A stretch of DNA of 35,103 bases, taken from contig LBYP01000019.1 of NCBI GenBank assembly GCA_000996245.1, forward strand, positions 1 to 35,103. Direction: 5' to 3'. The stretch's first letter is position 1, and the number at the start of each line of letters is the position of its first letter. A model generated the notes under the pieces. That model did not search any database, was not told where the DNA came from, and saw nothing but the letters and a program-made list of their open reading frames with translations. A program made the position numbers and the translations under genes. Shown here one piece after another: positions 8,441-35,103 of this stretch. Source of the stretch: Parcubacteria group bacterium GW2011_GWA2_40_23 (GTDB taxonomy: Bacteria; Patescibacteriota; Patescibacteriia; UBA11705; JABHMO01).

Positions 8441-8483
8441 CGTTAATTGTTTCATAAATCCGCTTGAGGAATTCTTTTTCTGA

Positions 8484-8512
8484 TTGATTTTTTAGCGTGA
8501 ATGTGGTAAAAT
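8484..8512 (+). promoter_or_regulatory. Promoter of the R-M operon (hsdM)
   Basis: TTGATT (8484-8489), a 17-nt spacer and TAAAAT (8507-8512). The leader before the ATG at 8546 would be about 27 nt and has no Shine-Dalgarno sequence. Confidence 0.6.
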
Positions 8513-8545
8513 TACACTAGTTTAATTTCCATTTGTAATATTAAT

Positions 8546-10123: not shown

Positions 10124-10124
10124 T

Positions 10125-10625: not shown

Positions 10626-10651
10626 GGGACAAAACCCGTAGAGGTATTTTT
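10612..10651. terminator. Terminator overlapping the end of the NYN gene
   Basis: AAAAATACC (10612-10620) pairs with GGTATTTTT (10643-10651), with an inner GGG/CCC pairing around ACAAAA. The symmetrical A and T runs would work in both directions. It separates hsdM-NYN from hsdS, so hsdS probably has its own promoter. Confidence 0.7.
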
Positions 10652-10755
10652 AATATGTATTCTATATAAAGAATAGCATATATATACAATTTGTCAACTT
10701 ATCCACAGTAAACATTTCATTTAAATTTAGAGAAAAAAGAAAATTATTGCGAAAT

Positions 10756-12012: not shown

Positions 12013-12300
12013 TGGTTTTTTGAAAAGCTAAATTTGTTATTGCAGAAAAGGGGATTCTGTGTTAAAATTGAATCACTAACTTTTAAGAGGCAAACATTAC
12101 TTTTGTAATGGGTGGTTACAACAGCTTGCAATAGCCATTCGATTTAGATGAGTTGGTTGAATTGTTTCTGCAAACTTGCAATAATTTAGCGAGTTCGTGA
12201 ACTAGTCTAGCGAAAGCTACGACCAAGAAGACAATTAGCATATAATAGGCACTTAATTTAATCATTAAGATTTGATTTAACACTGTCTTTATTATATATA
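12013..12300 (+). other. Noncoding stretch between hsdS and the RT RNA
   Basis: No credible gene is present. It holds a perfect CATTAC-TTTT-GTAATG hairpin (12095-12110), a direct repeat CTTGCAATA (12125-12133 and 12175-12183, 50 nt apart), and a GNRA-capped hairpin TAGC-GAAA-GCTA (12108 + 100, i.e. 12208-12219) preceded by AGTT-CGTG-AACT (12192-12203). The CTTGCAA element recurs in the RT RNA, where it closes a stem, so this stretch may belong to a longer RNA or be an older copy of part of it. Confidence 0.4.
12272..12300 (+). promoter_or_regulatory. Promoter of the RT-associated RNA
   Basis: TTGATT (12272-12277), a 17-nt spacer and TATATA (12295-12300). The predicted start, near 12307, falls at the 5' edge of the structured RNA and about 118 nt before the RT start codon. 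Confidence 0.6.
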
Positions 12301-12306
12301 CGTCAC

Positions 12307-12424
12307 GGTAAGACCCTAGTCCATTTGGACAGGACACGACTGCAAGCGAACCGAAAGGTTTTAGAACCTCTCCTCAGATCGAGCTATGTCTACGGCTTGC
12401 AAGGAGGGGTTTTTGCGTTTTTTT
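12307..12424 (+). ncRNA. Candidate RT-associated structured RNA
   Basis: The region folds compactly. CCT-a-GTCC pairs with GGAC-AGG around ATTT (12315-12333). TGCAAGC (12341-12347) pairs with GCTTGCA (12395-12401). Between them AACC-GAAA-GGTT (12349-12360) is a GNRA-capped hairpin. AACCTCTCC (12365-12373) pairs with GGAGGGGTT (12403-12411). The last two long pairings interleave, giving a pseudoknot or two alternative folds. TTTTTGCGTTTTTTT follows, so the second stem is also a terminator. The RT ATG at 12425 comes directly after. Some defence RTs (DRT2, DRT9) use an upstream RNA as template; a similar role here is an inference. Confidence 0.6.
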
Positions 12425-13744
12425 ATGAGCTTTATTCAATGGAAGGAACAACTAAAAGAAGAGAAAAAAGTAAAGAAATATCAACATTTAGATAGGTCTA
12501 TAAATTTAGATTTGAAAAATGATTTTCAAGAAGTTGTTGATGCAATAAAAAATATAACTAATCATTCATTTCTCCCGTTTATTAAAAGAATTAGCAGAAA
12601 AACAAGATTTAAACACAGAACAAATAAGCTTCCAGTTCGAACTTTGAAATTAAGACCCATTATGTATGCATCACATTTAGATTCTCATGTGTACAGTTAT
12701 TTTAATTATTGTTTATCACTGGAATATGAAAAGAAGCTAAAAGAATGTGAGTTGTCTAATGTCGTCTTAGCTTATCGTTCGATAAAAATACCTGAAAGTA
12801 GTGAGGGGAAGTGTAATATACATTTTGCGTCAGAAGTATTTAATTACATCTCCAATAGGGGGATGTGTGTCGTAATTACTCAAGATATTAAGGGATTTTT
12901 TGATGAAATTTCTCATAAATTTTTGTTTCAAGGTATAAAGGAACTATACGAAGGGGGTTGGATTGATTCTAGTCTTGTCAAGGTCCTTCATTCATTAACC
13001 GCATTCAAGTATATAAATTATGATGATTTCAGAAAGAACCATTTGAAACAATTGATAGAATCTAAAAAAGAAATTCCAATTTATAAATTAATTAAACAAT
13101 ATGTACATAAAAACAAATCTTCAAAAGGAATCCCTCAGGGAAGTCCTCTAAGTGGTTTATTGGCAAATATATACATGTTAAGTTTTGATATGGAGATTAG
13201 AAGGGAATTTCCTGCTGTCTTTTATCGAAGGTATAGCGACGACCTAATATTTATATGTGATGAAGAACTTAAGGATAACTTACTGGCTTCCATAGAAGAG
13301 AAAATATCACACAGGGATTTATCAATCCAACCAACAAAAACATTTATAGCAAAATTTGGATATGCTAATAGTATGCTAAAATGTGTTCAAGTGTCAGATG
13401 GTAATGGTGTGAAAAATAATCGGGATTATATCGACTTTTTAGGGTTTGAATATAATGGTCAGACTACACATTTCCGAAAAAACACGTACCAAAAGTTACT
13501 TAAAAAATCAGTAATTAACAGAATAAGTCGAAAGAAGAATTCAACAAAGTTAATCAAAAGGATAAAACCGAAAAAAGATACGTTAAAACATCGAAATCGT
13601 TCAAATTACTTAATGAAAGCCATTGAAGTCACGAAAAGTGATGGCATGAGAATACAGTTAAATAAATTCAATAGAAAAGTAAAAGAAAAATTTAAAAAGT
13701 CTTTATGCCACATCAATCCGAACAACAACTTGAAAAAACTCTAA
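12425..13744 (+). CDS. Reverse transcriptase, unknown-group/DRT-like
   Basis: The 439-residue protein has the full RT core. LRPIMYASHLDSHVYSYF resembles the first motifs of unknown-group RTs. ITQDIKGFFDEISH is motif A, KGIPQGSPLSGLLANIYM motif B, and FYRRYSDDLIFIC the catalytic YSDD. DFLGFEYNG follows as the last conserved block. The C-terminal ~100 residues are very basic and may bind RNA. QGSPLS argues against a diversity-generating retroelement, and there is no maturase or endonuclease domain. ATG 12425 is preferred because the upstream ATG at 12386 lies inside the RNA structure. Its end overlaps hsdR by 40 nt, so it is fixed in the operon. A phage-defence role is likely but unproven. Confidence 0.85.
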   Translation: MSFIQWKEQLKEEKKVKKYQHLDRSINLDLKNDFQEVVDAIKNITNHSFLPFIKRISRKTRFKHRTNKLPVRTLKLRPIMYASHLDSHVYSYFNYCLSLEYEKKLKECELSNVVLAYRSIKIPESSEGKCNIHFASEVFNYISNRGMCVVITQDIKGFFDEISHKFLFQGIKELYEGGWIDSSLVKVLHSLTAFKYINYDDFRKNHLKQLIESKKEIPIYKLIKQYVHKNKSSKGIPQGSPLSGLLANIYMLSFDMEIRREFPAVFYRRYSDDLIFICDEELKDNLLASIEEKISHRDLSIQPTKTFIAKFGYANSMLKCVQVSDGNGVKNNRDYIDFLGFEYNGQTTHFRKNTYQKLLKKSVINRISRKKNSTKLIKRIKPKKDTLKHRNRSNYLMKAIEVTKSDGMRIQLNKFNRKVKEKFKKSLCHINPNNNLKKL

Positions 13745-16381
13745 TAGAACAGTTAAATCGATTGGGATTTGCTTCAGTTATCTTAGAAAACCCTGATACG
13801 CTTGTTTTTAATTTGCGTAAACAATTAGAGAAATTTAATAATAGAAAATTTTCTGATACAGAATTCTCTCAAATCTTTAATCATCTCAATAAAGGCGAAC
13901 GTTTTTATAAGGCAAAAACATTGAGAGATCATTTTGCCATCTCTAATGACGATGACACTGTCTCATTTATTCAGTTTTTTAACATGGATCAATGGTGCAA
14001 AAACGAATATCAGGTTACACATCAGATCACCCAAGCCGGTCGTTACGAGAATCGTTATGATGTGACTTTGCTCATTAATGGTTTGCCACTAGTACATATA
14101 GAACTAAAACGTCGCGGAGTGGAAATGAAGGAAGCTTTTAATCAGATCCAACGTTATCATAAGCATTCATTCACCGGAACATTGTTTGAATACGTCCAAA
14201 TTTTTGTTATTTCTAATGGCGTTAATACTAAATATTTTTCCAATAATCCCAAACAATCATTCGAGCAAACTTTTTATTGGACAGATGAGCAAAATAATAA
14301 AATCACACAACTCGATAAATTTGCCGATGCCTTTTTGGGGAAGTGTACAGTCTCAGAAATGATTGCCGAACATATTGTATTAGCTGAATCTTTGCAAATA
14401 CCAATGACATTGCGCCCCTATCAATATTATGCAGTAAAAGCGATCGAAAAGCGTGTGCGTGAATCCAATAAAAACGGTTATATTTGGCATACTACTGGCT
14501 CAGGCAAGACCTTAACTTCATATAAGGCTAGTCAAATACTTTCACGAATGCCGGAAGTTAAAAAAGTATTGTTTGTTGTTGACAGAAAGGATCTGGATAT
14601 CCAGACAACTAAAGAATTCAATTCATTTTCCGACGGATCAGTCGATGGGACTGATAATACTCGTAATTTAGTTAAACAATTAAAAGATAAAAATCGTAAA
14701 ATTTGGGCAAACACATGCTCGCATTAAATCATTTTTTAAGAAAGCTCAACTTTTCGGATTCACGGGAACACCTATCTTTGCTGATAATAATGTTGGAGGA
14801 GTAACAACAGCCGATGTATTTGGAGAATGTTTGCATAAATATATCATTACTCATGCCATATCTGACGATAATGTCCTAGGTTTTGCTGTTGAATACGTCG
14901 GTAAGTACAAACAAAAGGATTCTAATACTTTGGATGCGGATATATTTGCTGAAACTCTTGTCGAAGGGATAGACACGAAAGAAGTTCTTGAAAGTGCTGA
15001 TCGGCTCAATAAAATTACAGATTATGTCTTGGCTGATTGGAAGAGAAAAACAAAGAATGGCAAATTTAACGCTCTTTTTGCAGTTTCAAGCATTGAAGTT
15101 TTGAAAAAGTATTACACCCTATTCAAAAATAAAAAAGCGGAAAATTTTAAAATCGCCACTATTTTTACCTATCAAGCTAACGAGGATGATAGTTCTGATA
15201 TGCTTGATGTTGATGTCTTTGCTGGAGAAGGAACAGCAGGGAACAAACATTCTCGAGATTTCTTGGAAGAATGTATTAAGGATTATAACAAAACATATTC
15301 AACAAATTTTTCAACTGACCGATTTTACGACTATTATCGTGATTTGCAAAAACGAATAAAAAGCAAAGAAATCGATCTAACTTTGGTGGTGAACATGTTT
15401 TTGACCGGTTTTGATAGTCCTAGACTAAATACTTTGTATGTTGATAAGAATTTACGTTATCACGGACTGATTCAGGCGTATTCAAGAACTAATCGTTTGT
15501 TAGATTCAGATAAACCGCATGGGAACATTGTTTCATTCAGAAATTTAAAGTTAGCCACTGATAAAGCTTTAGCGTTGTTCGGAGATGAAAATGCTAAAGA
15601 AATTGTGTTTAAGAAACCTTACGAAGAACAAAAGAAGGACTTTGAAAATAAGCTAAAAGAATTGCGAGATAAAGTCCCAACCGTTGCTTCCGTCGATACG
15701 TTACAAGGTGAAGAAGAAAAAGCGATCTTTGTAAAGTCATTTCGTGATTTGTTACGCATTAAGTCATCTCTGGAAACATTCGCTGAATTTTCTTTTCAAA
15801 ATTTAGGTATCTCGGAGCAAGAATTTTATGATTATCAAAGCAAGTATTTGGATATTCATGAAGAACGAAAAGATAATGAGAGTGGTACAGAATCAATTCT
15901 TGATCAAATCGATTTTGAGATTGAATTGACTGTGCGCGATATTATAAATTTTGATTACATTATTCAGCTTATTGCTGGGTTGAAGAATATCAGTTCAAAG
16001 ACTGTTCGCGAAAAGAAGACAGAAGAAATTTTACGTTTATTTGACCGTGACGTTAAGCTGCGCAAGAAAAAAGAGCTAATTAAGAAATTTATTGAAGAAA
16101 ATCTGCCGAGAATTAATAAATCTGATGATGTTGAAAAAGCATTTGGTAAATTTTGGTCGGGTGAACGATCTAATGTTCTAAAAAATATAGCTAAATCAGA
16201 AAAGATTCCACTCGAAAAATTTGATCAGTTGATTGGAGATTATTTATACACGCAGAGACTGCCAAGTGGACAGGAAATTGTGGAATTACTTCCAGAGATA
16301 CCGCGAATTCTTGAACGACAGGGAATTATTGATCGAATTAAAAATGCAATTGAAAATGTGGTTGATTTATTTGAATGGTAA
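13705..16381 (+). pseudogene. hsdR: Type I restriction endonuclease R subunit, internal deletion and frameshift
   Basis: Frame 1 (13705-14727) encodes a normal HsdR start (MPHQSEQQLEKTLIEQL), the nuclease domain with D...IELK (RYDVTLLINGLPLVHIELKR) and Walker A HTTGSGKT. After LKDKNRKI it runs into a stop at 14725. Frame 2 resumes from about 14702 with FGQTHARIKSFFKKAQLFG, FTGTP, TGFDSP and QAYSRTNR, and continues to 16381. In intact relatives about 50 residues lie between these points, including the Walker B DECH motif. They are missing, and the frame is shifted. DNA translocation and cleavage should be lost. An assembly error in a single read path remains possible. Confidence 0.88.
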
Positions 16382-17238: not shown

Positions 17239-18213
17239 ATGAAAAACAAGAGTAAGCAATTAGTAGTATATCAAACATCTTCTGGTTCAATTGAGTTGCG
17301 CGGTGATTTTAAGGCTGAAACAATTTGGGCAACCCAGGCAGAGATCGCCACTATTTTTGGAGTTACCTCTCAAAACATTACGATGCACCTGAAAAATATT
17401 TATAAGCAAAAAGAGCTTGTAAAACGGGCAACTTGTAAGGAATCCTTACAAGTTCAAGATGAGGGTAATCGTAGGGTTGAACGACGAATTAAAGAATATA
17501 ATTTAGATGTTGTTATTGCTGTTGGTTATAGAATAAATTCAATTATCGGGACTCATTTCCGTCAATGGGCGACAAAGATTCTGCGTGAACATATTACAAA
17601 GGGATACACCATGCACCGCAGGCGTATTCTTCGTAATTACGACTCTTTTATGAAAGCAGTTGGCGATATTCAAGCACTTTTGCCTGAACAAGTGGCTTTT
17701 GATTCAAAACAAGCGTTGGAATTGGTTAAAGAGTTCGCCAGTACCTGGATATCACTTGATGCCTTTGATAAAGAGGTGCTCGCACCTATTGGCACAACAA
17801 GAAGATCTGTCAAACTAACTGGCGAAGAATTAGCCATCGTTATCGCTGATTTTCGTGCAGAAATGATTAGTAAAAAAGAAGTATCAGATATTTTTGCTCA
17901 AGAAAGACAGTGGGGAAGTATTGCTGGCATAGTTGGTAATGTAATGCAATCTTTTGGTGGGCGGGAATTGTATCAAAGCGTGGAAGAAAAGGCTGCACAT
18001 CTTTTGTATTTTATGGTCAAGAATCATCCGTTTGCGGATGGGAATAAGCGCGCCGGTGCTTTTTCATTTGTTTGGTTTTTACGCAAAGCACGCGCCAAAA
18101 AATCAAGCAATATTAATCCGTCGACACTGACGGCGCTCACCCTGCTTATTGCCGAAAGTGATCCGAAAAAGAAAAATCAGATGACTGCACTCGTTACACA
18201 GTTGCTAAAATAA
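17239..18213 (+). CDS. RhuM-family protein with a Fic/DOC domain
   Basis: The 324-residue protein has an N-terminal RhuM part (TIWATQAEIATIFGVTSQNI, YNLDVVIAVGYRINS, FRQWATKILREHI), which resembles phage antirepressor DNA-binding modules. The C-terminal half contains HPFADGNKRAGAF, a complete Fic motif (HxFxDGNKRxG). Fic enzymes transfer AMP or related groups to target proteins, and DOC toxins are relatives. No partner antitoxin is visible. Proteins like this are often found beside type I R-M genes. Its flanks suggest insertion at the start of the HAD gene. Confidence 0.88.
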   Translation: MKNKSKQLVVYQTSSGSIELRGDFKAETIWATQAEIATIFGVTSQNITMHLKNIYKQKELVKRATCKESLQVQDEGNRRVERRIKEYNLDVVIAVGYRINSIIGTHFRQWATKILREHITKGYTMHRRRILRNYDSFMKAVGDIQALLPEQVAFDSKQALELVKEFASTWISLDAFDKEVLAPIGTTRRSVKLTGEELAIVIADFRAEMISKKEVSDIFAQERQWGSIAGIVGNVMQSFGGRELYQSVEEKAAHLLYFMVKNHPFADGNKRAGAFSFVWFLRKARAKKSSNINPSTLTALTLLIAESDPKKKNQMTALVTQLLK

Positions 18214-23998: not shown

Positions 23999-24027
23999 TT
24001 GACAAATTTTAAGATTTATACTAATCT
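23999..24027 (+). promoter_or_regulatory. Promoter of the GC-rich operon
   Basis: A perfect TTGACA (23999-24004), a 17-nt spacer and TAATCT (24022-24027), all in AT-rich DNA. An overlapping TATACT at 24017 is too close to the -35. The leader to ATG 24195 would be ~160 nt, AT-rich to about 24130 and then GC-rich. The same CTTGACAAAT core precedes the permease-ATPase gene. The rest of the 23941-24194 gap holds T-rich DNA without a gene. Confidence 0.65.
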
Positions 24028-24194: not shown

Positions 24195-25937
24195 ATGAGC
24201 CACAGGTCCTTGTTCCGACTGGTGCTGGTGCTGTTCGCGTTCGTCATGTTCCCCAACTTCGTCATGGCTGGCGAGGTGCTGAAGCCCCTCGCCAGCCAGA
24301 TCACGACGCCGGTGGGCGACGTGCAGGCCTACGGCGCCACCCAGGTGCCCATGATCACGTTCGGCGCGGACTACGCCGAGATCCACGCCAACGGTGACGC
24401 GAAAGTCACCACGGCCGACTCCATCTGGGGGCGGCTCGGGCTGAACATCTCTCTGGTCCTGCAGGACGACTTCAAGGCGCAGGTGCGAGACTACCTCAGC
24501 GGAAAGTCCCCGTACTTGCGCGGCGAGCTCGGCATGATCAACGAGATGACCGAAGGATGGAACGACCCGCGGGTGAAGCCCAGGGTCGCAGCCCTTCTGA
24601 CCCGGTCAACCGGTGGTGATGTCGTGGACGTGATGCCTGGCATCAAGACCGTCGAGGATTGGCGCGGCAAGCGCGTGGCCTTCCAGGCGGACGGGCCGCA
24701 CATGTACTGGTTGTGGGTCATTTTGGACTCCAACCGGATGAAGCTGTCCGATGTGAAGCTCGTGCCGATGAAGAACCTGTCCGGCAAGGACAGCCCGGCC
24801 GAAGCCCTGAAGATGGGCAAGGCCGACATCGCGTTCGTCATCAGCCCCGATCACCTGGCCCTGACCAGCGGCGGCACCGTCGGTACCGGCGCCGAAGGTT
24901 CGGTCAAGGGTGCTCGAGGGTTCATGACCTCCAAGACCGGCTCGTACATCGTGCACGATGTTTACGTCGTGCGTGAAGACTACTACCAGTCCCACCGGGA
25001 CGAGGTTGACAAGTTCACGCGCGGCATCATGAAGTCCCAGGAGGAACTGGGCGTTCTGTTCGCCGAGAAGAAGAGCGAGCAGTACAAGAAGGCCCTGAAG
25101 GCCTTCGCGACCATCATCCTCGGCAGTCCGGCCGCTGTGGCCGATGCCGAAGGCATGTTCGGCGAGTGCACGATGGCGGGATTCTCCGAGAACAAGAAGT
25201 TCTTTGGGGAAGCCAACTACCCGCGTGGCTTCGCCAACGTGAACAAGGAGATCCAGATCGCCCTCAAGGCGTACGGTGTCCTGACGACAGGATCCGTGCT
25301 CGCCTGGGCCGAATGGGACTTCGATGCGATGCAGAAGGCGAGCATGCTCGTCGCCAAGCCGGCAGCGCCGGCGCTGAATTCCGCGGTCGTCGCGGCAGCG
25401 GTGACGCGCCAGGCGCAGGCAGGCACGCTCGGCAACAACCAGATCTTCCCGACCTTCAGCATCTACTTCACACCGGAGCAGAAGGAATTCGCTCCGGCGC
25501 AGTACGCCGATGCGTTCGAGAAGATCGCGACCGACGCCGGCCGCTTCGGCGGCGCGGTTATCGTGATCAATGGCAATGCCGACCCGCTGGGGTACCTCAA
25601 GGCCAAGAAGTCCGGGGTCCAGCAGGGCGAGCTTTCCAAGATCAAGCAGGCGGCGCTCAACCTGAGCGTGAGCCGCGCCCTCCAGGTGAGGGACGCGATC
25701 ATCGCCTTCGCCAAGAGCAAAGGCATCTCGCTGGACATATCCCAGTTCTCCATGGTGGGGAACGGGTTCAGGACGCCGAAGAGTGGCCTGAAGAGTTCCG
25801 GTGCCTGCAACGATGCCTGGCTGGCCAACGATGACCCCTGTCCCCCGAAGTCCCAGGCCGCCTGGGCGGAGAACATGCGCGTCGACTTCAACATCGTGAG
25901 CGTCGAGGCCGAGGCCGGCGCTTTCGAGCAGCTGTGA
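24195..25937 (+). CDS. Exported NMT1/NrtA-type binding protein fused to an OmpA-like domain
   Basis: The 580-residue protein starts after GGAGGA (24185-24190). A Sec signal (RSLFRLVLVLFAFVMFPNFVMA) ends near residue 25. Residues ~45-390 form an ABC-type binding protein: VEDWRGKRVAFQADG and EALKMGKADIAFVISPDH are typical of the NitT/TauT group. After an Ala-rich linker, residues ~414-580 resemble the OmpA C-terminal domain, with GNADPLG (Asp463) and LNLSVSRALQV (Arg494), the two peptidoglycan-contact residues. A Cys pair lies in GACNDAW...DDPCPP. The protein is probably held on the cell wall. Third positions are mostly G or C, unlike the upstream genes. Confidence 0.85.
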   Translation: MSHRSLFRLVLVLFAFVMFPNFVMAGEVLKPLASQITTPVGDVQAYGATQVPMITFGADYAEIHANGDAKVTTADSIWGRLGLNISLVLQDDFKAQVRDYLSGKSPYLRGELGMINEMTEGWNDPRVKPRVAALLTRSTGGDVVDVMPGIKTVEDWRGKRVAFQADGPHMYWLWVILDSNRMKLSDVKLVPMKNLSGKDSPAEALKMGKADIAFVISPDHLALTSGGTVGTGAEGSVKGARGFMTSKTGSYIVHDVYVVREDYYQSHRDEVDKFTRGIMKSQEELGVLFAEKKSEQYKKALKAFATIILGSPAAVADAEGMFGECTMAGFSENKKFFGEANYPRGFANVNKEIQIALKAYGVLTTGSVLAWAEWDFDAMQKASMLVAKPAAPALNSAVVAAAVTRQAQAGTLGNNQIFPTFSIYFTPEQKEFAPAQYADAFEKIATDAGRFGGAVIVINGNADPLGYLKAKKSGVQQGELSKIKQAALNLSVSRALQVRDAIIAFAKSKGISLDISQFSMVGNGFRTPKSGLKSSGACNDAWLANDDPCPPKSQAAWAENMRVDFNIVSVEAEAGAFEQL

Positions 25938-25950
25938 GTGGGGGTGTAAG

Positions 25951-26754
25951 ATGAAGAACATCAAGCGCCTCACGCTCATCACGATCCTCCTCTGCGTCAG
26001 CTTCGGCTGCCGCATGCTCGAGGATAGTTCGGCCGTTCCTCCGCAGGTGCAGCAGTCGGTGGTCCAGAAGACCGTCGACGAGAGCACTGGCAAGACGACC
26101 AGCATCAAGAAGTCGTGGCCGCCCCTCGAGAATGGGGCGTCCGCGCAGGCTCCGAACCTGCTGGCCAGGAATTACTTGCTCGTCCTGGACCACTCTGGTT
26201 CCATGGGCAGCAGCGAACGCTCGAGCAACTGTGACACCAACGGCCGCTCGAAGATCGACGTCGCGAAGGCGGCGATCACTGAGTTCGCCAAGGCAATCCC
26301 GAACGACGCGAACATCGGGCTCGAGTGGTTCGCACCATCGGAAGTGGTGGTGCCCCTTTCGCTCAACACGCCGGAGCAGAACCAGGGCTTCGTCCAAAAG
26401 CTCATGACGGCTGAGTCCGACAGTGGGACGCCCATTGCGGAAGCGATGGAGTTGGCCTACAACACGCTCACTGCGCAAGCGGTTCTGCAACTCGGGTACG
26501 GCGAGTACTATATCGTGATCGTCACGGATGGTGCCGCCGACTCTGGCAGCGACCCCGGCAGGTGGGTCGAGTTCATCACCAAGAACACGCCGATCGTGAT
26601 CTACACGATCGGGTTCTGCATCGGATCCCAGCACTCGCTTAACCAACCCGGGATAACGACCTACAAGAACGCGTCGAATGTCGGACAGCTGGCCGCTGCG
26701 TTGCAAGACGTGCTGGCCGAGGCGCCCGACTTCACGCCGCTGACGTTCGAATAA
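25951..26754 (+). CDS. Exported VWA-domain protein
   Basis: The 267-residue protein has an N-terminal export signal (RLTLITILLCVSFGC). Cys20 or so follows SFG, a poor but possible lipobox. The VWA domain starts at ~70 with YLLVLDHSGSMGSS, then DSGTPIAEAMELA and VIVTDGAADSG. These give an intact MIDAS (DxSxS, T, D), so it should bind a metal and a partner protein. The spacing to the previous gene is 13 nt, with only a weak Shine-Dalgarno (GGGGGTG). It may link the wall-held binding proteins to one another. A strong hairpin follows the stop. Confidence 0.83.
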   Translation: MKNIKRLTLITILLCVSFGCRMLEDSSAVPPQVQQSVVQKTVDESTGKTTSIKKSWPPLENGASAQAPNLLARNYLLVLDHSGSMGSSERSSNCDTNGRSKIDVAKAAITEFAKAIPNDANIGLEWFAPSEVVVPLSLNTPEQNQGFVQKLMTAESDSGTPIAEAMELAYNTLTAQAVLQLGYGEYYIVIVTDGAADSGSDPGRWVEFITKNTPIVIYTIGFCIGSQHSLNQPGITTYKNASNVGQLAAALQDVLAEAPDFTPLTFE

Positions 26755-26761
26755 CCTTTGC

Positions 26762-26791
26762 CCGGCGGCAGGAGCTTGCTCCTGCCGCCGG
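26762..26791 (+). other. Intergenic stem-loop upstream of the second binding protein
   Basis: CCGGCGGCAGGAGC, TT, then its exact reverse complement form a 14-bp stem. TTCCTCAA follows instead of a T run. A similar stem with the same trailing TTCCTCAA lies at 30641-30677. It may stabilise the upstream mRNA or tune expression of the next gene. Confidence 0.7.
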
Positions 26792-26814
26792 TTCCTCAAA
26801 ACTGGAGGAGGTCC

Positions 26815-28386
26815 ATGACTGGAAAAGGCAGACTGATACTAATCGTCCTCCTCGTCGTAGGCAGTATCGCTGGCATGTTGGCTTGGAAGTTCTACGAGCC
26901 GATGAAGAAGGCTCAGGACGTGGAAGACACGTCCATGGCCAAGGACATGCTCGGCGAGATCGATCTCAGGGATGACAACTTCTTCGGCTACTTCATGATC
27001 CGTAGTAAACAAATGCGGAGCATGATGATCCAGAACAGATGGCATCTCAAGATCACTGACGACAAGGCCGATTACCCCGCGCGCATGGAGGCACTCGCCA
27101 AGGGCGAAGCTGACATGGCCGTGGTTACGGTAGACAGCTACTTGCTCAATGCCGCGAAGTACGACTATCCCGGCACGTTGACGTTCGTGATCGACAAATC
27201 CGCGGGCGTTGATGCTCTCGTCGGCTGGAAGAAGGCAGGGACGAGCCTAAACGACTTCCGTGGCAAGAAAATTCGGGTGTGCTTTACGCCCGATAGTCCC
27301 AGTCACCACTTCCTGAAAGCGTTGAAGACTGGGTTCGATTTGCCAGAGGTGCTGCCCCCCAAGGGTTCGCCGCTGCGGATCGAGACCGACGGTTCCGAGG
27401 AAGCCATGAAATTCCTCCTCGCCGACAAGTGCGACCTTGCCATGGGCTGGGAGCCAGACATCAGTAGGACCTTGGCCAAAGAAAGTGGCATCGTTCGGCT
27501 CATCGGTACCGAGAAGATGGACGGCTACATCGTGGACGTCCTGGCAGTGTCGCGGGAGTTCCTGAAGAAGCACCCGGAAGCAGTGAAGCTGTTCATGGCG
27601 AATTACTTCCGGGCGCTCAACTACTACACCAAGGAGCATCCCGAAGAACTTCGGATCGAGCTCATGGCCGAGACCGGCCAATCGGCTGAAGTCGTCGAGA
27701 AGATGCTGAAGGGGATCGTCTGGGTAAACCTGACGCAGAACTGCCTTGTGTGGTTCGGTATCGGGCCTGCCAGTGCGAATCCCAGTACGTTGCTCGCGGA
27801 GACGATCGAGTCGACCGTGGCAGTGCTCATCGATAACAAAGACTTCGACAAGAACCCGTTGCCGGACGGAGATCCCTTCAAGATCTTCTACGGCGACATC
27901 TTGGCGGAGCTGTTCAAGAAGAGCGCTGCTGGCATGGCGAGTGAGAACGCGCCGGCCGTGGTCAACTCGCTCGAGACCAAGTTCGATGCCATGAGCGCAG
28001 ACCGTTGGGCCACGCTCAAGGAAATCGGAACGCTGAAAGTCGAGCCAATCGTGTTCCAAAGCGGTACGGCTCGTCTCGGCCTCGACGGAAAGACAGATCT
28101 CGATTTACTGGCGGAGAAGATGAAGCACTTCCCGACAGCGCGCCTGAAGGTCTTCGGACACACAAGTATCGAAGGTGATCCGGTGGCCAACAAGGAGCTG
28201 TCGCTCGAAAGGGCCGAAGCTTGCGTCAAGTACTTCGAGGTGACCTATTCGATGGATCCCAACCGGTTCCTGCCGATTGGGATGGGCGGCGGAAAGCCTC
28301 TGCCCCAGCTGCCGGACGAAGAAGATCGTGGATGGCTTTACCGCCTGCCGCGCGTGGAGATGATGCTGGTCGTCGACGAGATCTGA
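26815..28386 (+). CDS. Membrane-anchored binding protein with an OmpA-like domain
   Basis: The 523-residue protein starts at ATG 26815 after GGAGGAGGT. One N-terminal helix (RLILIVLLVVGSIAGMLAW) serves as an uncleaved anchor. Residues ~45-390 are a binding-protein domain of the same broad type as the first gene (LNDFRGKKIRVCFTPD, ADKCDLAMGWEPDI). Residues ~409-523 match the OmpA family: IVFQSGTARL, KVFGHTSIEGDP, NKELSLERAEACV. The Asp of the usual GHTD is Ser here, while the Arg of LSxxRA remains, so peptidoglycan binding may be altered. It is linked to the next gene by 16 nt and a full AAGGAGGT. Confidence 0.84.
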   Translation: MTGKGRLILIVLLVVGSIAGMLAWKFYEPMKKAQDVEDTSMAKDMLGEIDLRDDNFFGYFMIRSKQMRSMMIQNRWHLKITDDKADYPARMEALAKGEADMAVVTVDSYLLNAAKYDYPGTLTFVIDKSAGVDALVGWKKAGTSLNDFRGKKIRVCFTPDSPSHHFLKALKTGFDLPEVLPPKGSPLRIETDGSEEAMKFLLADKCDLAMGWEPDISRTLAKESGIVRLIGTEKMDGYIVDVLAVSREFLKKHPEAVKLFMANYFRALNYYTKEHPEELRIELMAETGQSAEVVEKMLKGIVWVNLTQNCLVWFGIGPASANPSTLLAETIESTVAVLIDNKDFDKNPLPDGDPFKIFYGDILAELFKKSAAGMASENAPAVVNSLETKFDAMSADRWATLKEIGTLKVEPIVFQSGTARLGLDGKTDLDLLAEKMKHFPTARLKVFGHTSIEGDPVANKELSLERAEACVKYFEVTYSMDPNRFLPIGMGGGKPLPQLPDEEDRGWLYRLPRVEMMLVVDEI

Positions 28387-28402
28387 ACCAAGGAGGTGTC
28401 GA

Positions 28403-29299
28403 ATGAACAAGAGCGTTGCTCTTGCCCGGCGTAAGGAAGCCCCTTCGCTGGGGCCTCCGATAACGACCGCGGATCTGTTCGGTCCGAAAGTAAAGAAAGC
28501 GGTGCTGAAGAAGACCGCTACGAGTCTGGCTACGTTAGCCCCCTTGGGTGTGGGTCTGGTCGGTGTCGCGGGATGTGTGATCCTGGGATCGACTGGTCTT
28601 TTCATCATCATGGGAATTGTGGGCGGCGCAGTTGGAGCTGGATGCTGGGCATTCAACTACTTCATTCGTGGAAGCACGATCGAGGCAGAACATGTGTCCA
28701 GGCTGACCCAGATCATGAAGCAGCAGAACGATGCACGAGTTGCGCGCTTGCGTGACGAGATCATCCTCTGCCGCGATATTCCTGATGCTGCCGAGTATTC
28801 TGAACAGGGATTGGTCCAGTACGACAACGTCGCAAGACAGTTGACGGCACTGCAGACCATCCTGGAACGTCAGCTGTCGCCAGATGAAATGACCTTCGGG
28901 AAGTTCGTCGGGAGCGCACAGCAACTCGCTTTGAACATCATGGACAATCTCCGCATCATGGTTTGTACCCTCGAAGCAGTTCGAGGGGCTGACGCGGAAG
29001 TCATCAGACGGGGTTTGCAAAAGCTTGAACGTCAAGCGGTGCTGACTCCTTCGGATCAAGATGAGAAAGCAGAGCTACTAATTCGCAAGAAACTTCGTGA
29101 AGATGCGCTGATCGAGGCCAACAGGCTCGCTGATGGCAACGAAAAGTTCATCACGAAGCTGATCCAAGCTACGGTAAATCTCGGCAGAATGCGGGCCGGT
29201 GGTTCCGCACAAGTAGATGCCGAGAGTGCGATGCGCTCTCTCCTGCAGGTGGCCGCACGGTGCGCCGCCTACGGGCAAAACAAAGCAGCGGATATTTAA
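28403..29299 (+). CDS. Two-TM coiled-coil protein, probable TelA partner
   Basis: The 298-residue protein follows AAGGAGGT. Two adjacent hydrophobic helices (about residues 43-60 and 64-88, Gly/Val-rich) anchor it. The remaining ~210 residues are helical and charged, probably coiled coil and cytoplasmic. I do not recognise the family. In other bacteria TelA-family genes often sit beside a small membrane/coiled-coil gene such as xpaC; the same position here suggests a similar partnership, which is an inference. Third positions are less GC-biased than in the flanking genes. Confidence 0.7.
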   Translation: MNKSVALARRKEAPSLGPPITTADLFGPKVKKAVLKKTATSLATLAPLGVGLVGVAGCVILGSTGLFIIMGIVGGAVGAGCWAFNYFIRGSTIEAEHVSRLTQIMKQQNDARVARLRDEIILCRDIPDAAEYSEQGLVQYDNVARQLTALQTILERQLSPDEMTFGKFVGSAQQLALNIMDNLRIMVCTLEAVRGADAEVIRRGLQKLERQAVLTPSDQDEKAELLIRKKLREDALIEANRLADGNEKFITKLIQATVNLGRMRAGGSAQVDAESAMRSLLQVAARCAAYGQNKAADI

Positions 29300-29313
29300 A
29301 GAAGGAGGCTCCC

Positions 29314-30600
29314 ATGCCCGACGACGGAACCCACATTGGCTTGAACCCCACGACCATGGAACCCGAGGTCCCCAAGCGTGAAGCTCTCGTGCTGACCAAG
29401 ACCGAAGACGACGTGCTGAAGCAGAAGGTCGCCGGAGATCTCGGTCTCCTCGACGTCGACAAGCCCGAAGCCACGGCCCTCGCCTTGCGCAAGGACCCGA
29501 CGGTTATCGCCGCGGCCGACAAGAACTTCGCCTCCCTCGTGGAGGTGAGCATGACGGACGCAGGGTCCGTGACCTCCGTGGTGCACCTGGCGCAGACCAT
29601 GGGTCTCGAGACCCAGCAAGCGTCCGCCATGAAGAACGCGGTCATGGGGCAGTACATCCGTCAGCTCGGTACGGGCGGCGAGACCAGCTCGGAATTGCGC
29701 AACGACATGGTGGACCTGCGCGAGATCACCGACAAGCTCGACCCGCACGGATTTGACTTCAGCGTCGGCACCGTCGTCCGCGTCTTCGCGGCGGTGTTGC
29801 CGGACAAGCTGAGCCACCCGGTCACGCGCTACTTCCTGCAGTTCGAGACCGGATCGGTCGCGATCGACACCATCCTGAAGCGTCTGGACGCCGGCTACCT
29901 GAAGCTCCAGCGCAACAACGACACCTTGATCGAGGAGCAGGCGGACATCCGTCAGCTCACGATCCGCTTGCTCTACAACCTCAGCCTGGGCATGGAACTC
30001 CGTGCCCGGATCGAGGCGAAGATCGCCGAGCTGCCCGCGGGCTCGCCGGTCGCCAAGTTCCTGAAGGAGCAGGTCCTGTTCGAGATCAACATGCGGTGCG
30101 TGTCCATGGGCAAGCAGTTGCTGGTGAACCAGCAGGGCTACATGTCCATGGAGATCGCGCGCGGCAACAACCAGACGCTGATGCGGGCCGTCCTCGACAC
30201 GCGCAACGTCACGGTGGCCGCCCTGAACATCGCCGTGTTCCTGGCGTACATCATCAACGACCAGAAGCTGACCCTCGAGGTCATCGGGTCGCTGAACGCC
30301 ACGACCAGCGAGCTCATCCTGCGCAACGCGAAGCTGCTGCGCTCGGAAGGCCTGGCCATTCAGAAGGAAGCCGTCGAAGGCGGCCTGGAGATGGACAAGC
30401 TCAAGGAAGCCTTCGTCGAAATCAGCGGCGCCGTCGAGGACTACGAGAAGTTCCGCAACGCGGCGCTGGAGCCCCAGGGTAAGCTCATCGCTCAGCTGGC
30501 CGATCTGTCGGCCCAGGCCGAGGAGAGCATCCAGCGCATCGAGAAGGGTCACGTGGCGCAGGGGCAGATGATCGACATCGCGCCCCCCATCGCCGCCTGA
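29314..30600 (+). CDS. telA: TelA/KlaB-family protein (toxic anion resistance family)
   Basis: The 428-residue protein starts after AAGGAGG, 14 nt past the previous stop. It is all-helical and soluble. TRYFLQFETGSVAIDTILKR, YLKLQRNNDTLIEEQADI and VTVAALNIAVFLAYII follow the TelA pattern. The family was named for tellurite resistance on plasmid RK2, but its molecular action is not settled; it recurs in envelope-stress and ter-like clusters. Here it sits inside a transporter operon, so a link to envelope state or transport is likely. Codons are the most GC-biased of the island. Confidence 0.85.
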   Translation: MPDDGTHIGLNPTTMEPEVPKREALVLTKTEDDVLKQKVAGDLGLLDVDKPEATALALRKDPTVIAAADKNFASLVEVSMTDAGSVTSVVHLAQTMGLETQQASAMKNAVMGQYIRQLGTGGETSSELRNDMVDLREITDKLDPHGFDFSVGTVVRVFAAVLPDKLSHPVTRYFLQFETGSVAIDTILKRLDAGYLKLQRNNDTLIEEQADIRQLTIRLLYNLSLGMELRARIEAKIAELPAGSPVAKFLKEQVLFEINMRCVSMGKQLLVNQQGYMSMEIARGNNQTLMRAVLDTRNVTVAALNIAVFLAYIINDQKLTLEVIGSLNATTSELILRNAKLLRSEGLAIQKEAVEGGLEMDKLKEAFVEISGAVEDYEKFRNAALEPQGKLIAQLADLSAQAEESIQRIEKGHVAQGQMIDIAPPIAA

Positions 30601-30640
30601 CCTCGTCCTGAACAGTTCTAGTGCTCAGTTCTAGCTAAGC

Positions 30641-30677
30641 ATGCCGGCGGTGGGTCGCAGTGACTCACCGCCGGCAT
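30641..30677 (+). other. Intergenic stem-loop upstream of the third binding protein
   Basis: ATGCCGGCGGTG pairs with CACCGCCGGCAT, and the inner GTC/GAC pair extends it around a GCAGT loop, about 16 pairs in all. TTCCTCAA follows, as at 26792. No T run is present, so it is more likely an mRNA-processing or attenuation element than a full terminator. Confidence 0.7.
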
Positions 30678-30720
30678 TCCTCAACAAGTTCCTCAACGGA
30701 AAGATGAAGGAGACCGAGAG

Positions 30721-31803
30721 ATGAAGAAGCTCACGCAGTTCCTCATGGCCGTCGTGTTCGCGCTGGTCGCGATCACCATGACCGTGCCCAGCTCGAGCGC
30801 CCAGGCACAGCCCTCGACCCAGACGAAGGACGTGTTCGACATGACCTTCAGTCACTACATCACCTGGGACTTCTCGCCGTTCCTGTTTGAGAACCTGGTG
30901 GCCAAGTGGTCGAAGAAGTACGGCATCACCATCCGGCTCTCCGAGCCGATGGACTATGCCGAGTCCATCACGCAATTCGGTCTCGGCAAGTACGACGCCG
31001 TGACCATCACGAACATCGACTCCTACATCGCGCCGGCCTTCGGCGGGATTGACGTCGAGTTCATCGTCATCCAGGACTACTCCGCCGACAACGACGGGAT
31101 CGTCACCAAGTCGGGCAAGACCATGTCCGACATGAAGGGGCGCGAGATCACCATCGTCCAGAACACGGTCACGCAGCACCTCGTGGCGCGCTGCCTCGAG
31201 CTCGCCAAGATGAAGCTGACCGACATCATCATGAAGGGCGCCGGCTCCGAGTCGGAAGTGCTGACCGCCTTCGTGACCAACGACGACCCCAAGACCACGG
31301 TCGGCACCTGGAACCCCAACCTGCTGAAGTTGCGGCAGGAGAAGCACGCTAACATGGTCTGCGGGTCCAGCCAGATCCCCGGCGAGATCATGGACGGCAT
31401 CCTCGTGCGCGTCGACGCCGACGAGCGCCTGAAGAAGGCCTTGACCGGCGCCTACTACGAGATGATAAGCCAGCTCGCCACCAAGGGCGCCGCTCGCAAC
31501 AAGGTCGTCGCAGCCGGGGCCAAGAGCGCCGGTTGCACCGTGCCCGAGTTCGAGCAGCAGATGAAGACCACGCACCTGTTCATGTCGCCGAAGGAAGCTC
31601 TCGACTTCATGACGGCCCCCGGCTTCAAGGCCCTGATCCAGACCGTGCAGCGCATCGCCTTCGAGGCCAAGCTGTACGAGCCCAAGAGCGTGGGTCAGGT
31701 CGGCATCGAGTTGCCGAACGGTGAGATCCTCGGCGACAAGAGCAACGTCCGCATGCACTTCCCCCTGAAGTACATGAAGATGGCCGCCGACGGCAAGCTC
31801 TAG
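30721..31803 (+). CDS. Exported NitT/TauT-type binding protein without OmpA domain
   Basis: The 360-residue protein follows AAGGAGA. A Sec signal (TQFLMAVVFALVAITMTVPSS) is cleaved near SSAQA. The mature part is a binding protein: FSHYITWDFSPFLFENLVAK, FGLGKYDAVTITNIDSYIAP and MSDMKGREITIVQNTVTQHL. The Thr/Asn/Asp-rich pocket region fits a small organic or inorganic anion, but the substrate is not readable. Unlike the first and third genes of the cluster it has no wall-binding tail, so it may be the mobile shuttle. A strong terminator follows. Confidence 0.85.
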   Translation: MKKLTQFLMAVVFALVAITMTVPSSSAQAQPSTQTKDVFDMTFSHYITWDFSPFLFENLVAKWSKKYGITIRLSEPMDYAESITQFGLGKYDAVTITNIDSYIAPAFGGIDVEFIVIQDYSADNDGIVTKSGKTMSDMKGREITIVQNTVTQHLVARCLELAKMKLTDIIMKGAGSESEVLTAFVTNDDPKTTVGTWNPNLLKLRQEKHANMVCGSSQIPGEIMDGILVRVDADERLKKALTGAYYEMISQLATKGAARNKVVAAGAKSAGCTVPEFEQQMKTTHLFMSPKEALDFMTAPGFKALIQTVQRIAFEAKLYEPKSVGQVGIELPNGEILGDKSNVRMHFPLKYMKMAADGKL

Positions 31804-31848
31804 CTGTCGCCTCGAGACCAGTTCTAACTGATCCCTCGTGATCGGTTT

Positions 31849-31887
31849 CCCCCAGTAGACATCATGTTTGCTGGGGGATTTTTTTAC
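31849..31887 (+). terminator. Strong terminator of the six-gene operon
   Basis: CCCCCAGTAGAC pairs along its full length with GTTTGCTGGGGG (two G-T pairs, ATCAT loop) and is followed by ATTTTTTTA. The DNA turns AT-rich immediately after. Confidence 0.92.
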
Positions 31888-31903
31888 ACTAAATGCTTAA
31901 CGT

Positions 31904-32013
31904 TAATCAAAAAAACAAGAAAGCAAAAAAGCAATTAGCATCGAATGATAATCTTTTTGTTTTTTTGATTATCGCTAGATATTTGTTTTCTTGCTTTCTT
32001 GTTTTCTTGATTA
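31904..32013. repeat. Nested inverted repeat in the AT-rich gap
   Basis: The 31-nt arm 31904-31934 matches the reverse complement of 31983-32013 at 28 of 31 positions. Inside lie GATAATC/GATTATC (31947-31973) and TAGC/GCTA. There is no gene in 31804-32135; the gap holds this structure, the terminator before it and the promoter after it. Long imperfect A/T-rich arms could form a cruciform or act as a further terminator on either strand. Confidence 0.7.
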
Positions 32014-32036
32014 TACGCTGACTTGCTTTTTTTAGC

Positions 32037-32065
32037 TTGACAAATCCATAAAAACTTTGTAAACT
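32037..32065 (+). promoter_or_regulatory. Promoter of the permease-ATPase gene
   Basis: TTGACA (32037-32042), a 17-nt spacer and TAAACT (32060-32065). The leader to ATG 32136 is about 65 nt and contains AGGGGA (32123-32128) at proper ribosome-binding distance. Confidence 0.7.
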
Positions 32066-32135
32066 AACAGGCCATGTATTTGGCAAAATGACGCAAAAAA
32101 GGCGTTTTGAACAAACTGAAATAGGGGACTGTACC

Positions 32136-34937
32136 ATGGACGAGCTCAAAAAGGATCTGCGACCTGCCGAAGAGTCTGTGAAGAAGGCCAAGCGGTCGAG
32201 GACGGTCAAGTTCATCGGCTACTTCTCGACCGGCGCCCTCATTGCTGTCTTCAGCGCCTTTGTGCTGATTGCAGCGGTGTCCGGCTGGGACATGGCCTAC
32301 AACTACCTGAAAGAGGTGGTGGCCAATCCGATCGACAGCTGGAAGTCGTTTCTGTGCGTCTTTGTGCTCCTGCCAACGATCGTGGGTCTCACGATCAACG
32401 TCAAAAGGAGGGACATCAAAGAAACGTTCTGCACGTTCAAGATGCCAGGTTGGAAGACACTCATGGGCTTGGGCGTAAGCTTGATCATCGTGAGCGTGAT
32501 CGGTTACTTCTTCAGCGATCTGATCATCATCTACTTGAAGGGTCTCTACCACGATCCGCGCGAGCACCTCTGGTTCATCGGAACTACGATCGTGCTCGTC
32601 GTTTTCGTCCTGGCGGCCATGCCGTACCTGCGGCGTCGGTTTCTGTTCTTCTTCAGCGTGCACTACAAGCCGTCGAAGAAGGTGATTCTGGCGCTCGGCA
32701 TGATCCTGTTCTTGGCCACTGGTTTCGCGTATTGGCGTACCATGGTTGAACGGCACAGGTTGAATCCGGATGATCGTCTGACCCCCACCCTTGCACAAAT
32801 GGTAGAAGAGTTCCAGAATTACGCATTCCCACCAACGGCGGAAGACATCTGGCAAAAGGGGCGGAACGAGCTGGTCGGTGCGGCCTTCAATGGCTTGCAT
32901 CCGAGCAACTGGTCAGACCTCAGCCTGGTGTCGTTCCAGACCGCCTGGACAACGTTCGTCGAGGCCTACCATGGCCCGAAGAATGAACAAGAAGCCTGGC
33001 AACTGGAACGAAACACACAAATGAATACTGTCTTCGTAGCTCTCCACCCGAGCAATTGGGCGGAAGTCAGCGTAGCGTCGTTCATGAAAGCGTGTTCTGA
33101 CTACAAGTCCGAGTTCGAGAATTCGCCACAACACGTCAAAGGTGAGCCGAACCTGTTCGTGAAGGACGTTACCGCAAGTCTGCGGCGACTAATCCTCGGA
33201 ATGATGATCTCGTCAGCGCTGGCGTTGTTCTTCGGACTTTTCATGGGGACCCTCGGAGTCTTTCGTGGGTTCTTCCTGCCCTTTATCGTGTTCTTGTCGA
33301 TTATCCCGCCCATCGCGCTCATGCCGGTAATCCTCGGGGTTTTTGGTGTCGACGAGATGGCCAAGATCGTGGTGATCGTCATCGGTACGTTCCTGCTCAT
33401 GTCGCGAGACTTGAAACAGAGAACGATCGAACTGCCCGACGAGCAAACCGTAAAGGCCATGACGCTCGGCGCGAATTCCTTCCAGATTATAAGGAAGGTC
33501 TTCCTGCCGCAGCTCATGCCCAAGTTCGTGGAAACCATGATCATCTACCTCAGCCCTGGTTGGATCTTCGTTATAGTGAGCGAGATGATCGCTTCGAGCG
33601 AAGGCCTGGGCTACCGGATCTTCATGGCCCGGCGCAACTTCAACATGGCCAAGGTGATTCCCATCGTCATCACGGTCGCGGTTCTCGCGATCAGTGTGAC
33701 AGCGCTTCTGAAGCTCTTCATTACGATCCGCTACACCTGGTACGGCAAGGAAGAAAATCGTGCCTGGGTCGAAAAGTTCAAAAAGCCGTTCCGGCCGATG
33801 ATGAAGTACGTCTCTCGGCATTGGAACAATTTCCTCGATCGTTTTGCTGGACTGCTGATTCGCATTTCGGATTACCTCGGTAAGAAAAAAAGCGACAGCT
33901 ATCTGTGCACTTTCCTGAACAGAAGCATCAAGTTCGTGTTCGGTCCTTTTTTCTACGGACTTCGAGGAATCGACCAGCACATGGAAAAGCGCACGGTCGA
34001 TGCCAAGCTCGCTACCTTGAAAACTACGCACTTTGTTCCAGGCAAGCACATGATCTACCTGGAAGACGTGAAGGTGGTGTACGGAGAAAAAACGGTTCTG
34101 GCCGACATTGACTTGGCCGTCAGTACAGGTGAACTCGTGACCTTGGTTGGTCCGTCGGGGTGTGGCAAGTCCACTCTTCTGCGACTACTCCTCGGCCAAG
34201 AGCAACCCACCTCTGGCACTGTCTTGGTTAACGGTCAGCCGGTCGACCACCCTGACAGTCGACGTGGTATCGTTTACCAGCAGTTCGGGACCTTCCCGCA
34301 TCTGACGGTCATCGAAAACGTCATGTTGGGCCTGCAGTTCAAAGCAGGTTTCTTTGAACGGTTCATGAATCGAGCCGAAATTCGCAAGCAGGCGGAAGAA
34401 ATGCTCGCCGATGTGCTCATGTCCGATCACCTGGACAAGTACCCGAGCCAACTCTCGGGCGGTCAGCGTCAGCGGGTGGCCATTGCCACAACGCTGGTCA
34501 TGCGCCCGGAAGTAGTCTTTATGGATGAGCCGCACTCTGGGCTCGACCACTTCACTCGTTCGGCCTTGCAGGAGATGATCAAGAACCTGTGCCAGAAGTA
34601 CGGGGTCACGATCATCTTCATTACGCACAGCTTCGAAGAGGCTGTGTACCTGGGCAGTCGTGTCATCGGGCTGTCGCAGTACTACAAGGACGGCGAGTCC
34701 ATCAAGGTTCATGGCGCGCGTATCGTGGTTGATCTCAGCCTCGGACGTACGCCCAAGACCATCGAGCAGAAGGCAACTGCTGAGTTCGGCGAAACGCAGC
34801 TTCTGCTGGCACGTGAATGCTTCACGGAAGGTGTGTCGCACTGGGTGACGGAGTTGCCGCTGAAGCATGGCGACAGTTTCATCACCTTGGCTGACTGCGT
34901 CAAACGCGTCCTCAAGGTTCCTGAAGTAACTTCGTAG
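32136..34937 (+). CDS. Single-chain ABC transporter, permease fused to ATPase (NitT/TauT type)
   Basis: The 933-residue protein starts at ATG 32136 after AGGGGA; the ATG at 32088 would add 16 residues without such a site. Helices at ~25-48, 70-88, 106-132, 143-162 and 180-200 are followed by a soluble insert (~205-340). The insert has two copies of an HPSNW repeat (253-273 and 302-322). The second permease part (~350-535) holds the EAA-like loop MTLGANSFQIIRKVFLPQL. The ATPase (~640-870) has GPSGCGKST, QLSGGQRQRVAIA, FMDEPHSGLD and the switch His831 in FITHS. A ~70-residue tail follows. Such transporters normally use separate permease and ATPase chains; here two copies of this fusion would suffice. 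Confidence 0.9.
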   Translation: MDELKKDLRPAEESVKKAKRSRTVKFIGYFSTGALIAVFSAFVLIAAVSGWDMAYNYLKEVVANPIDSWKSFLCVFVLLPTIVGLTINVKRRDIKETFCTFKMPGWKTLMGLGVSLIIVSVIGYFFSDLIIIYLKGLYHDPREHLWFIGTTIVLVVFVLAAMPYLRRRFLFFFSVHYKPSKKVILALGMILFLATGFAYWRTMVERHRLNPDDRLTPTLAQMVEEFQNYAFPPTAEDIWQKGRNELVGAAFNGLHPSNWSDLSLVSFQTAWTTFVEAYHGPKNEQEAWQLERNTQMNTVFVALHPSNWAEVSVASFMKACSDYKSEFENSPQHVKGEPNLFVKDVTASLRRLILGMMISSALALFFGLFMGTLGVFRGFFLPFIVFLSIIPPIALMPVILGVFGVDEMAKIVVIVIGTFLLMSRDLKQRTIELPDEQTVKAMTLGANSFQIIRKVFLPQLMPKFVETMIIYLSPGWIFVIVSEMIASSEGLGYRIFMARRNFNMAKVIPIVITVAVLAISVTALLKLFITIRYTWYGKEENRAWVEKFKKPFRPMMKYVSRHWNNFLDRFAGLLIRISDYLGKKKSDSYLCTFLNRSIKFVFGPFFYGLRGIDQHMEKRTVDAKLATLKTTHFVPGKHMIYLEDVKVVYGEKTVLADIDLAVSTGELVTLVGPSGCGKSTLLRLLLGQEQPTSGTVLVNGQPVDHPDSRRGIVYQQFGTFPHLTVIENVMLGLQFKAGFFERFMNRAEIRKQAEEMLADVLMSDHLDKYPSQLSGGQRQRVAIATTLVMRPEVVFMDEPHSGLDHFTRSALQEMIKNLCQKYGVTIIFITHSFEEAVYLGSRVIGLSQYYKDGESIKVHGARIVVDLSLGRTPKTIEQKATAEFGETQLLLARECFTEGVSHWVTELPLKHGDSFITLADCVKRVLKVPEVTS

Positions 34938-34991: not shown

Positions 34992-35103
34992 TTAATGAGT
35001 TGCCCGATATAGCTCATAATAAACGGTTACCGAAAAGTCATGCTCTGAGTGTACCGGATTGTCGTTGGATATCATATACTTTTTTAAGTCTTTTTTCCAT
35101 TTC
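34992..35103 (-). CDS. C-terminal fragment of the same unrecognised protein as at 1-165
   Basis: On the minus strand the repeat reads 33 residues identical to the left fragment, then ATH and a TAA at 34992-34994. It enters from the window edge and converges on the permease-ATPase gene with only a terminator between. The short, clean ending suggests that this copy has the native C-terminus and the left copy the altered one, though the reverse cannot be excluded. Confidence 0.5.
   Translation of the reverse strand, partial: KWKKDLKKYMISNDNPVHSEHDFSVTVYYELYRATH
35005..35102. repeat. 98-bp inverted repeat, right copy
   Basis: Exact reverse complement of 1-98. One further base (35103) lies outside it. 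Only 24 nt separate it from the terminator of the GC-rich island. Confidence 0.95.

Follow-up and report, generated by a model that had tools for sequence, protein, structure and literature searches.

A TelA-type envelope cassette at a patescibacterial locus and its PspA-type sisters on chromosomes and in huge-phage contigs

Introduction

What might a TelA-family protein do in a run of genes for solute-binding proteins, an exported VWA protein and an ABC transporter, and do these genes belong together? The question is raised by the end of contig LBYP01000019.1 of Parcubacteria group bacterium GW2011_GWA2_40_23 (assembly GCA_000996245.1; 1.22 Mb, 37 contigs, 99.8% complete), of which positions 1 to 35,103 (forward strand) were analysed and are here called the window. 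TelA proteins are widespread and are named after tellurite resistance, and we know of no clear biochemical role for them. A sequence-only reading of the window had proposed that seven genes form one undescribed envelope operon, with TelA acting below the membrane. Here, we report what profile, neighbourhood, tree and structure searches say of that proposal.

Results

Layout of the locus. An ORF check of the window confirmed seven co-directional genes between 24195 and 34937, all intact (Table 1). Genes A to F are closely packed, and F and G are separated by a 332-bp AT-rich gap; because this gap holds its own TTGACA-17-TAAACT box before G, the seven genes probably form two transcription units.

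Table 1. Features of the cassette locus, in window coordinates
Feature	Position	Strand	Basis and remarks
Candidate promoter TTGACA-N17-TAATCT, sigma-70-like	23999..24027	+	Pattern scan; match to consensus only; AT-rich DNA upstream of gene A
Gene A, exported NMT1-type binding protein, OmpA-like C-terminal tail, 580 aa	24195..25937	+	Pfam NMT1
Gene V, exported VWA protein, complete MIDAS	25951..26754	+	Pfam VWA_2
Gene C, TM-anchored NMT1-type binding protein with OmpA domain, 523 aa	26815..28386	+	Pfam
Gene D, membrane hairpin and coiled coil, 298 aa	28403..29299	+	Homology to D of PspA-type cassettes
Gene E, TelA (PF05816), 428 aa, long helices predicted	29314..30600	+	Pfam
Gene F, free exported binding protein near TIGR03427 (urea/guanidine ABC type)	30721..31803	+	NCBIfam score
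AT-rich inverted repeat (AAGAAAACAAGAAAGCAAAAAAGC type), between F and G	31896..32033		On many contigs of the genome; query positions about 7892-8034
Candidate promoter TTGACA-N17-TAAACT, sigma-70-like, before gene G	32037..32065	+	Match to consensus only
Gene G, fused ABC permease-ATPase, 933 aa, about five extra N-terminal TM segments	32136..34937	+	Pfam

Elsewhere in the window, a restriction-modification (R-M) island lies about 8 kb upstream of the cassette. It is of type I (8278-16381) and comprises HsdM (8546-10123), HsdS (10747-12012), a reverse-transcriptase ORF (12386-13744) and an HsdR apparently in two ORFs (13705-14727 and 14831-16381). Just upstream of it are a DUF3800 gene (7408-8190) and, on the minus strand, a DUF3800-V RNA (8278-8392), and a RhuM/Fic-domain protein (17239-18213) adjoins the island.

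Proteins of the cassette. Three NMT1/NrtA-type binding proteins had been read from the letters. Two of them, A (Pfam NMT1, E=7e-10) and C (TM segment at 7-25, NMT1, and an OmpA domain with E=8e-11), fit that description; F, which has a signal peptide, fits it only loosely and is closer to TIGR03427, to which it scores 301.8 bits, below the cut-off of 333.9. The F homologues of two genomes of the same order (G004 and G008), of Vibrio plasmids and of a phage contig (L050) are all above this cut-off, and those of the PspA-type cassettes described below score 97-158 bits. The tethers assigned to the three proteins stand as described, with an OmpA-like tail on A, a TM segment plus OmpA domain on C, and F free and exported. 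The tail of A is below Pfam detection, and its Asp463 and Arg494 are invariant in an alignment of six homologues; in the OmpA domain of C, the usual peptidoglycan-contacting Asp is Ser here, and Ser or another residue stands at this position in the alignment of C. The Asp/Arg pair of OmpA_C-like domains presumably contacts diaminopimelate, and we assigned its positions in A and C from knowledge of the family.

Gene V encodes the exported VWA protein with intact MIDAS that had been described (VWA_2, E=6e-11; DxSxS, T160 and D193 conserved). Its lipobox is degenerate in this genome and clean in the Vibrio and G008 homologues, which are probably lipoproteins. The two-TM coiled-coil protein is D, a membrane hairpin with a coiled coil, for which the Pfam scan named no family; a profile search against the PDB returned only short coiled-coil matches, with no Snf7/ESCRT match. 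Gene E was verified as TelA, over the Pfam gathering cut-off of PF05816 (E=2.8e-39, 135.6 bits, model positions 19-331 of 332). Its predicted model, of low confidence (pLDDT 65), has long helices; a fold search against the PDB gave nothing under E=0.01 and no convincing match to this model, and no solved structural relative of TelA was found. The permease-ATPase of 933 residues (BPD_transp_1 and ABC_tran) is present, and its nucleotide-binding motifs (Walker A, signature, Walker B, H-loop) are all intact, but its single chain, part of the earlier description, was seen in this genome only, with permease and ATPase as separate genes in every homologue inspected. In the fused protein (P0007), an LHPSNW segment occurs twice at residues about 240-325 (window 32850-33120), in a linker before the permease domain; both copies are missing from the aligned homologues.

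Base composition and origin. A rise in GC content from 37% to 60% at about position 24190 had been missed by the earlier note. GC3 is 0.60-0.95 in the cassette and 0.32 in nine upstream genes, and cassette codon usage is anticorrelated with that of the flanking (host) genes (r=-0.62). Translational selection was rejected as the cause of the high GC3, since the ribosomal genes for L2, S19 and L22 of the same genome have a GC3 of about 0.3. Cassette loci of some other members of the class have 64-67% GC, and the simplest reading is that the cassette was recently acquired from a GC-rich relative, a transfer that would explain its composition. The sharp change in GC and codon usage, together with the low GC3 of the ribosomal genes and the fact that the window stops at a contig end inside a repeat, could also be produced if assembly or binning had joined a foreign GC-rich contig end to a low-GC patescibacterial contig. 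We hold this to be highly improbable, because a native repeat common to many other contigs of the genome sits within the GC-rich stretch, between the sixth and seventh genes; the promoter boxes and intergenic DNA of the cassette are AT-rich and host-like, the nearest cassette on the tree is an orthologue in a genome of the same family, and the artefact was rejected on these grounds. The repeat at 31896-32033 is possibly one of a palindromic family spread genome-wide. At the other end of gene G, the last ~98 bases of the window (35006-35103) match the ends of contigs C6, C10 and C21 and the start of their own contig, as an assembly-breaking repeat.

TelA-type cassettes in other replicons. The genes are not confined to this contig, and TelA and the transporter co-occur elsewhere, contrary to the outcome that would have spoken against the sequence-only reading. 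In a groundwater 'Candidatus Falkowbacteria' genome of the same family (G004, JACRNX010000022.1), the seven proteins are all encoded, collinearly and with identities of 31-55%, and the permease and the ATPase have a gene each; in a genome of the same order and another family (G008), the cassette lies between scpA and scpB, and TelA is encoded at another chromosomal site. These two and the present genome are the carriers among ten genomes of the order, and both chromosomal copies adjoin housekeeping genes (alaS; scpA/scpB). TelA matches with E<1e-30 among 93 relatives were found in exactly the three TelA-cassette carriers, in a survey queried with this genome's TelA, from which remote TelA proteins would escape; by the Pfam model, 380 genomes of the phylum were surveyed and TelA passed its cut-off in just 6.

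Six Vibrio plasmids, two of them followed through the whole cassette, have the order A-V-C-D-TelA-F-permease with the ATPase gene shifted to the front. About 5 kb upstream of the cassette on two plasmids (L027, 3130-3348; L028, 2982-3200) is a gene for PRTRC-system protein C. A 545-kb IMG/VR virus contig (L050), with a terminase, has the order A-V-C-D-TelA-F-permease-ATPase; an HNH-endonuclease-like ORF (17300-18163) lies between its F and permease genes, and its ATPase reading frame is apparently broken after 20383. With TelA as the query, this contig was the only one returned from the viral contigs, and no cassette was found in the INPHARED phages; a gene C query of genome contigs with narrow patterns returned the Falkowbacteria relative only. 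The conserved gene order across such distant replicons rules out chance assortment, and the collinearity seen on chromosomes, plasmids and huge phages gives strong support to the earlier claim that the genes are one unit.

PspA-type sister cassettes. Using a profile of C as the survey marker, seven more carriers were found among 381 genomes of the class. Their neighbourhoods hold homologues of A, V, C, F, permease and ATPase in the same order, and most hold in the TelA slot a ~277-residue protein homologous to that of the huge phage LR756511 (595 kb). This phage and two IMG/VR contigs (436 and 299 kb) have the cassette in this same form, and a terminase was found in each of the three phage contigs tested for it (595, 545 and 299 kb). 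Two bacterial carriers depart from the layout: the stretch from D to F of G699 yielded no E protein, and its contig stops once the ATPase gene is passed; in G597, the contig end truncates gene A. An AAA+ gene of ~600 residues usually follows the PspA-type cassette, and a homologue of it is absent from this genome (E<=1e-8), the TelA-type phage and the Vibrio plasmid. Examples from bacteria and phages lie behind the cassettes of L083 (2217-4064) and L056 (18140-19507), with the AAA domain in the C-terminal half, in agreement with the two-AAA protein reported by Ravi et al.

Scans of single sequences with Pfam and NCBIfam named nothing for the alternative E protein. A profile of seven sequences, searched against PDB sequences, had Vipp1/PspA as its top four matches (E=2e-7 to 2e-6 over 188 residues), and its AlphaFold2 model, again of long helices, gave Vipp1/PspA as all nine best Foldseek matches (probability 1.00, with E only about 0.01). 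On this profile and this predicted model, the alternative E is assigned to the PspA/Vipp1 (ESCRT-III) family. PF04012 has no match in this genome, G004 or G008, and TelA has no detectable homology to the PspA-like protein (hhalign 0.2-0.4%, with two and then seven PspA-like sequences), a value on which TelA was rejected as a PspA homologue. The D proteins of the two cassette types are homologous (hhalign 98.2%, E=4e-14).

Gene order is conserved, and the two clades share homologues of A, V, C, D, F, permease and ATPase. Unrooted trees were built from A, from C and from a concatenation of five proteins; all TelA-type cassettes fall on one side of a 100/100 branch, and TelA and PspA switched once on the tree. 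Phages stand on both sides of that branch, so the cassette was acquired by phages at least twice. Slot E appears dispensable to the operon, given the TelA outside the cassette in G008 and the missing E protein in G699.

Discussion

Relation to described systems. That the cassette is undescribed holds only in part. A brief account by Ravi et al. 2024 (mSystems, PMC11237479) has an operon of PspA, Snf7-like TM protein, AAA+ ATPase (with an inactive N-terminal copy), ABC ATPase, permease and PBPB-OmpA, exemplified by OGG56892.1, which is evidently the PspA-type cassette. The cassette reported here shares with it an ABC permease, an ATPase and a PBPB-OmpA binding protein, and the same inferred theme of membrane remodelling tied to solute transport, but it has TelA for PspA and no AAA+ gene. 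The Snf7-TM protein of that account would correspond to D by position, D being homologous to the D of PspA-type cassettes. The main text of Ravi et al. contains no TelA, von Willebrand domains (count of 'vWA', 0), phage carriage or Patescibacteria. The PspA version had thus been described (PMC11237479), whereas for the TelA version, the VWA gene, and the phage and plasmid carriage we found no description in the openly accessible literature.

Three further systems share parts of the cassette. The urea-carboxylase-linked ABC transporter has homologous F, permease and ATPase, but the cassette is without urea carboxylase, allophanate hydrolase and UAAP genes, and its F is under the cut-off. Ter systems (TelA, TerD, TerC, TerF vWA) also encode TelA and a vWA protein together, and a sub-membrane role has been proposed for them; the cassette differs in that its VWA protein is exported, not cytoplasmic, and in its transporter and wall-binding solute-binding proteins, and none of TerB, TerC and TerD is among the Pfam and NCBIfam matches of the seven cassette proteins. 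A review of jumbo phages (PMC7824862) places TelA and TerF vWA in sub-membrane structures of Ter systems and does not describe the cassette, and a paper on huge phages (PMC7162821) mentions no transporter. The classical Psp response (PspFABC, LiaIFSR) resembles the sister cassettes in its use of a PspA/Vipp1-family protein, but the cassette lacks PspB, PspC and PspF, and its TelA is no PspA homologue.

A proposed working. On balance, we lean slightly towards regarding the locus as the TelA-carrying form of a mobile cassette of the envelope, in which a wall-anchored binding and transport complex would be coupled to a membrane-protection polymer at the inner leaflet, with TelA standing in for PspA. 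Outside the membrane, A and C would use their OmpA-type domains to hold a solute-binding, wall-sensing layer close to it, A at least retaining the presumed peptidoglycan-contacting residues, and the exported VWA protein, proposed earlier to bridge the binding proteins, might scaffold this layer via its metal site. F, of the urea/guanidine family, would serve the ABC permease-ATPase. Through D, a membrane-hairpin coiled coil, the condition of the binding layer or of the transporter may be signalled to a helical protein that would line the membrane on its cytoplasmic side (TelA in one clade, a PspA-like protein in the other) and stabilise or reshape the inner leaflet; the complex would then report to, or recruit, a membrane-lining helical polymer. 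The physical complex is a proposal, and an equivalent task for TelA and the PspA-like protein is what we infer from the replacement in slot E, the two being without homology and the TelA model without a convincing match. The earlier placement of TelA below the membrane gains indirect support from the PspA/Vipp1 protein that occupies this slot in the sister clade. More tentatively, TelA might be a functional substitute for PspA/Vipp1, that is, a polymer beneath the membrane, there to protect or remodel the inner leaflet and driven by a wall-anchored, solute-binding ABC complex mobile among ultrasmall bacteria, huge phages and plasmids.

Alternative readings. The locus could instead be an ordinary urea/guanidine (TIGR03427) importer, its extra wall-tethered binding proteins used for scavenging by a cell that lives on others and TelA, VWA and D acting as accessory stabilisers. 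Caballeronia and Asticcacaulis plasmids encode, next to urea carboxylase, a transporter of the family to which the cassette's F, permease and ATPase belong; the ABC motifs of the cassette are intact, and the F proteins of G004, G008, Vibrio and L050 pass the TIGR03427 cut-off. We nonetheless think such an importer unlikely. Urea carboxylase (TIGR02712) is over the cut-off in none of the ten carrier genomes, on which ground a guanidine/urea catabolic module was rejected, and F of the PspA types scores far from TIGR03427; a fixed catabolic substrate for the cassette is therefore unlikely. An Rfam search at gathering scores found no riboswitch in the window, and uptake needs neither three binding proteins per permease nor a conserved PspA/TelA slot.

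Carriage in four huge-phage contigs and six plasmids, with the repeated acquisition by phages seen on the tree, would also suit a conflict module of huge phages and plasmids that alters the envelope to shut out competing phages or to shield the infected cell. This would match what has been proposed for Ter systems, with TelA in a role below the membrane; PMC7824862 proposes sub-membrane structures of TelA and vWA proteins as a block to phage entry. However, a defence-system library matched only generic ABC ATPases, and the chromosomal copies in G004 and G008 stand beside their housekeeping genes, not in defence islands, although in the window the R-M island does lie about 8 kb upstream of the cassette. 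A conflict role is unlikely in our judgement.

Under the envelope reading that we favour, the interest of the cassette stems from the TelA/PspA exchange and from its spread on huge phages and plasmids. It joins membrane protection to contact with the cell wall and the binding of solutes, and its presence in huge phages and on Vibrio plasmids implies that it is mobile and of use to its carriers. The one exchange between TelA and PspA/Vipp1, with the rest of the cassette conserved, leads directly to a hypothesis on the role of TelA that can be tested and that, if true, would provide a concrete role for a large and poorly understood stress family.
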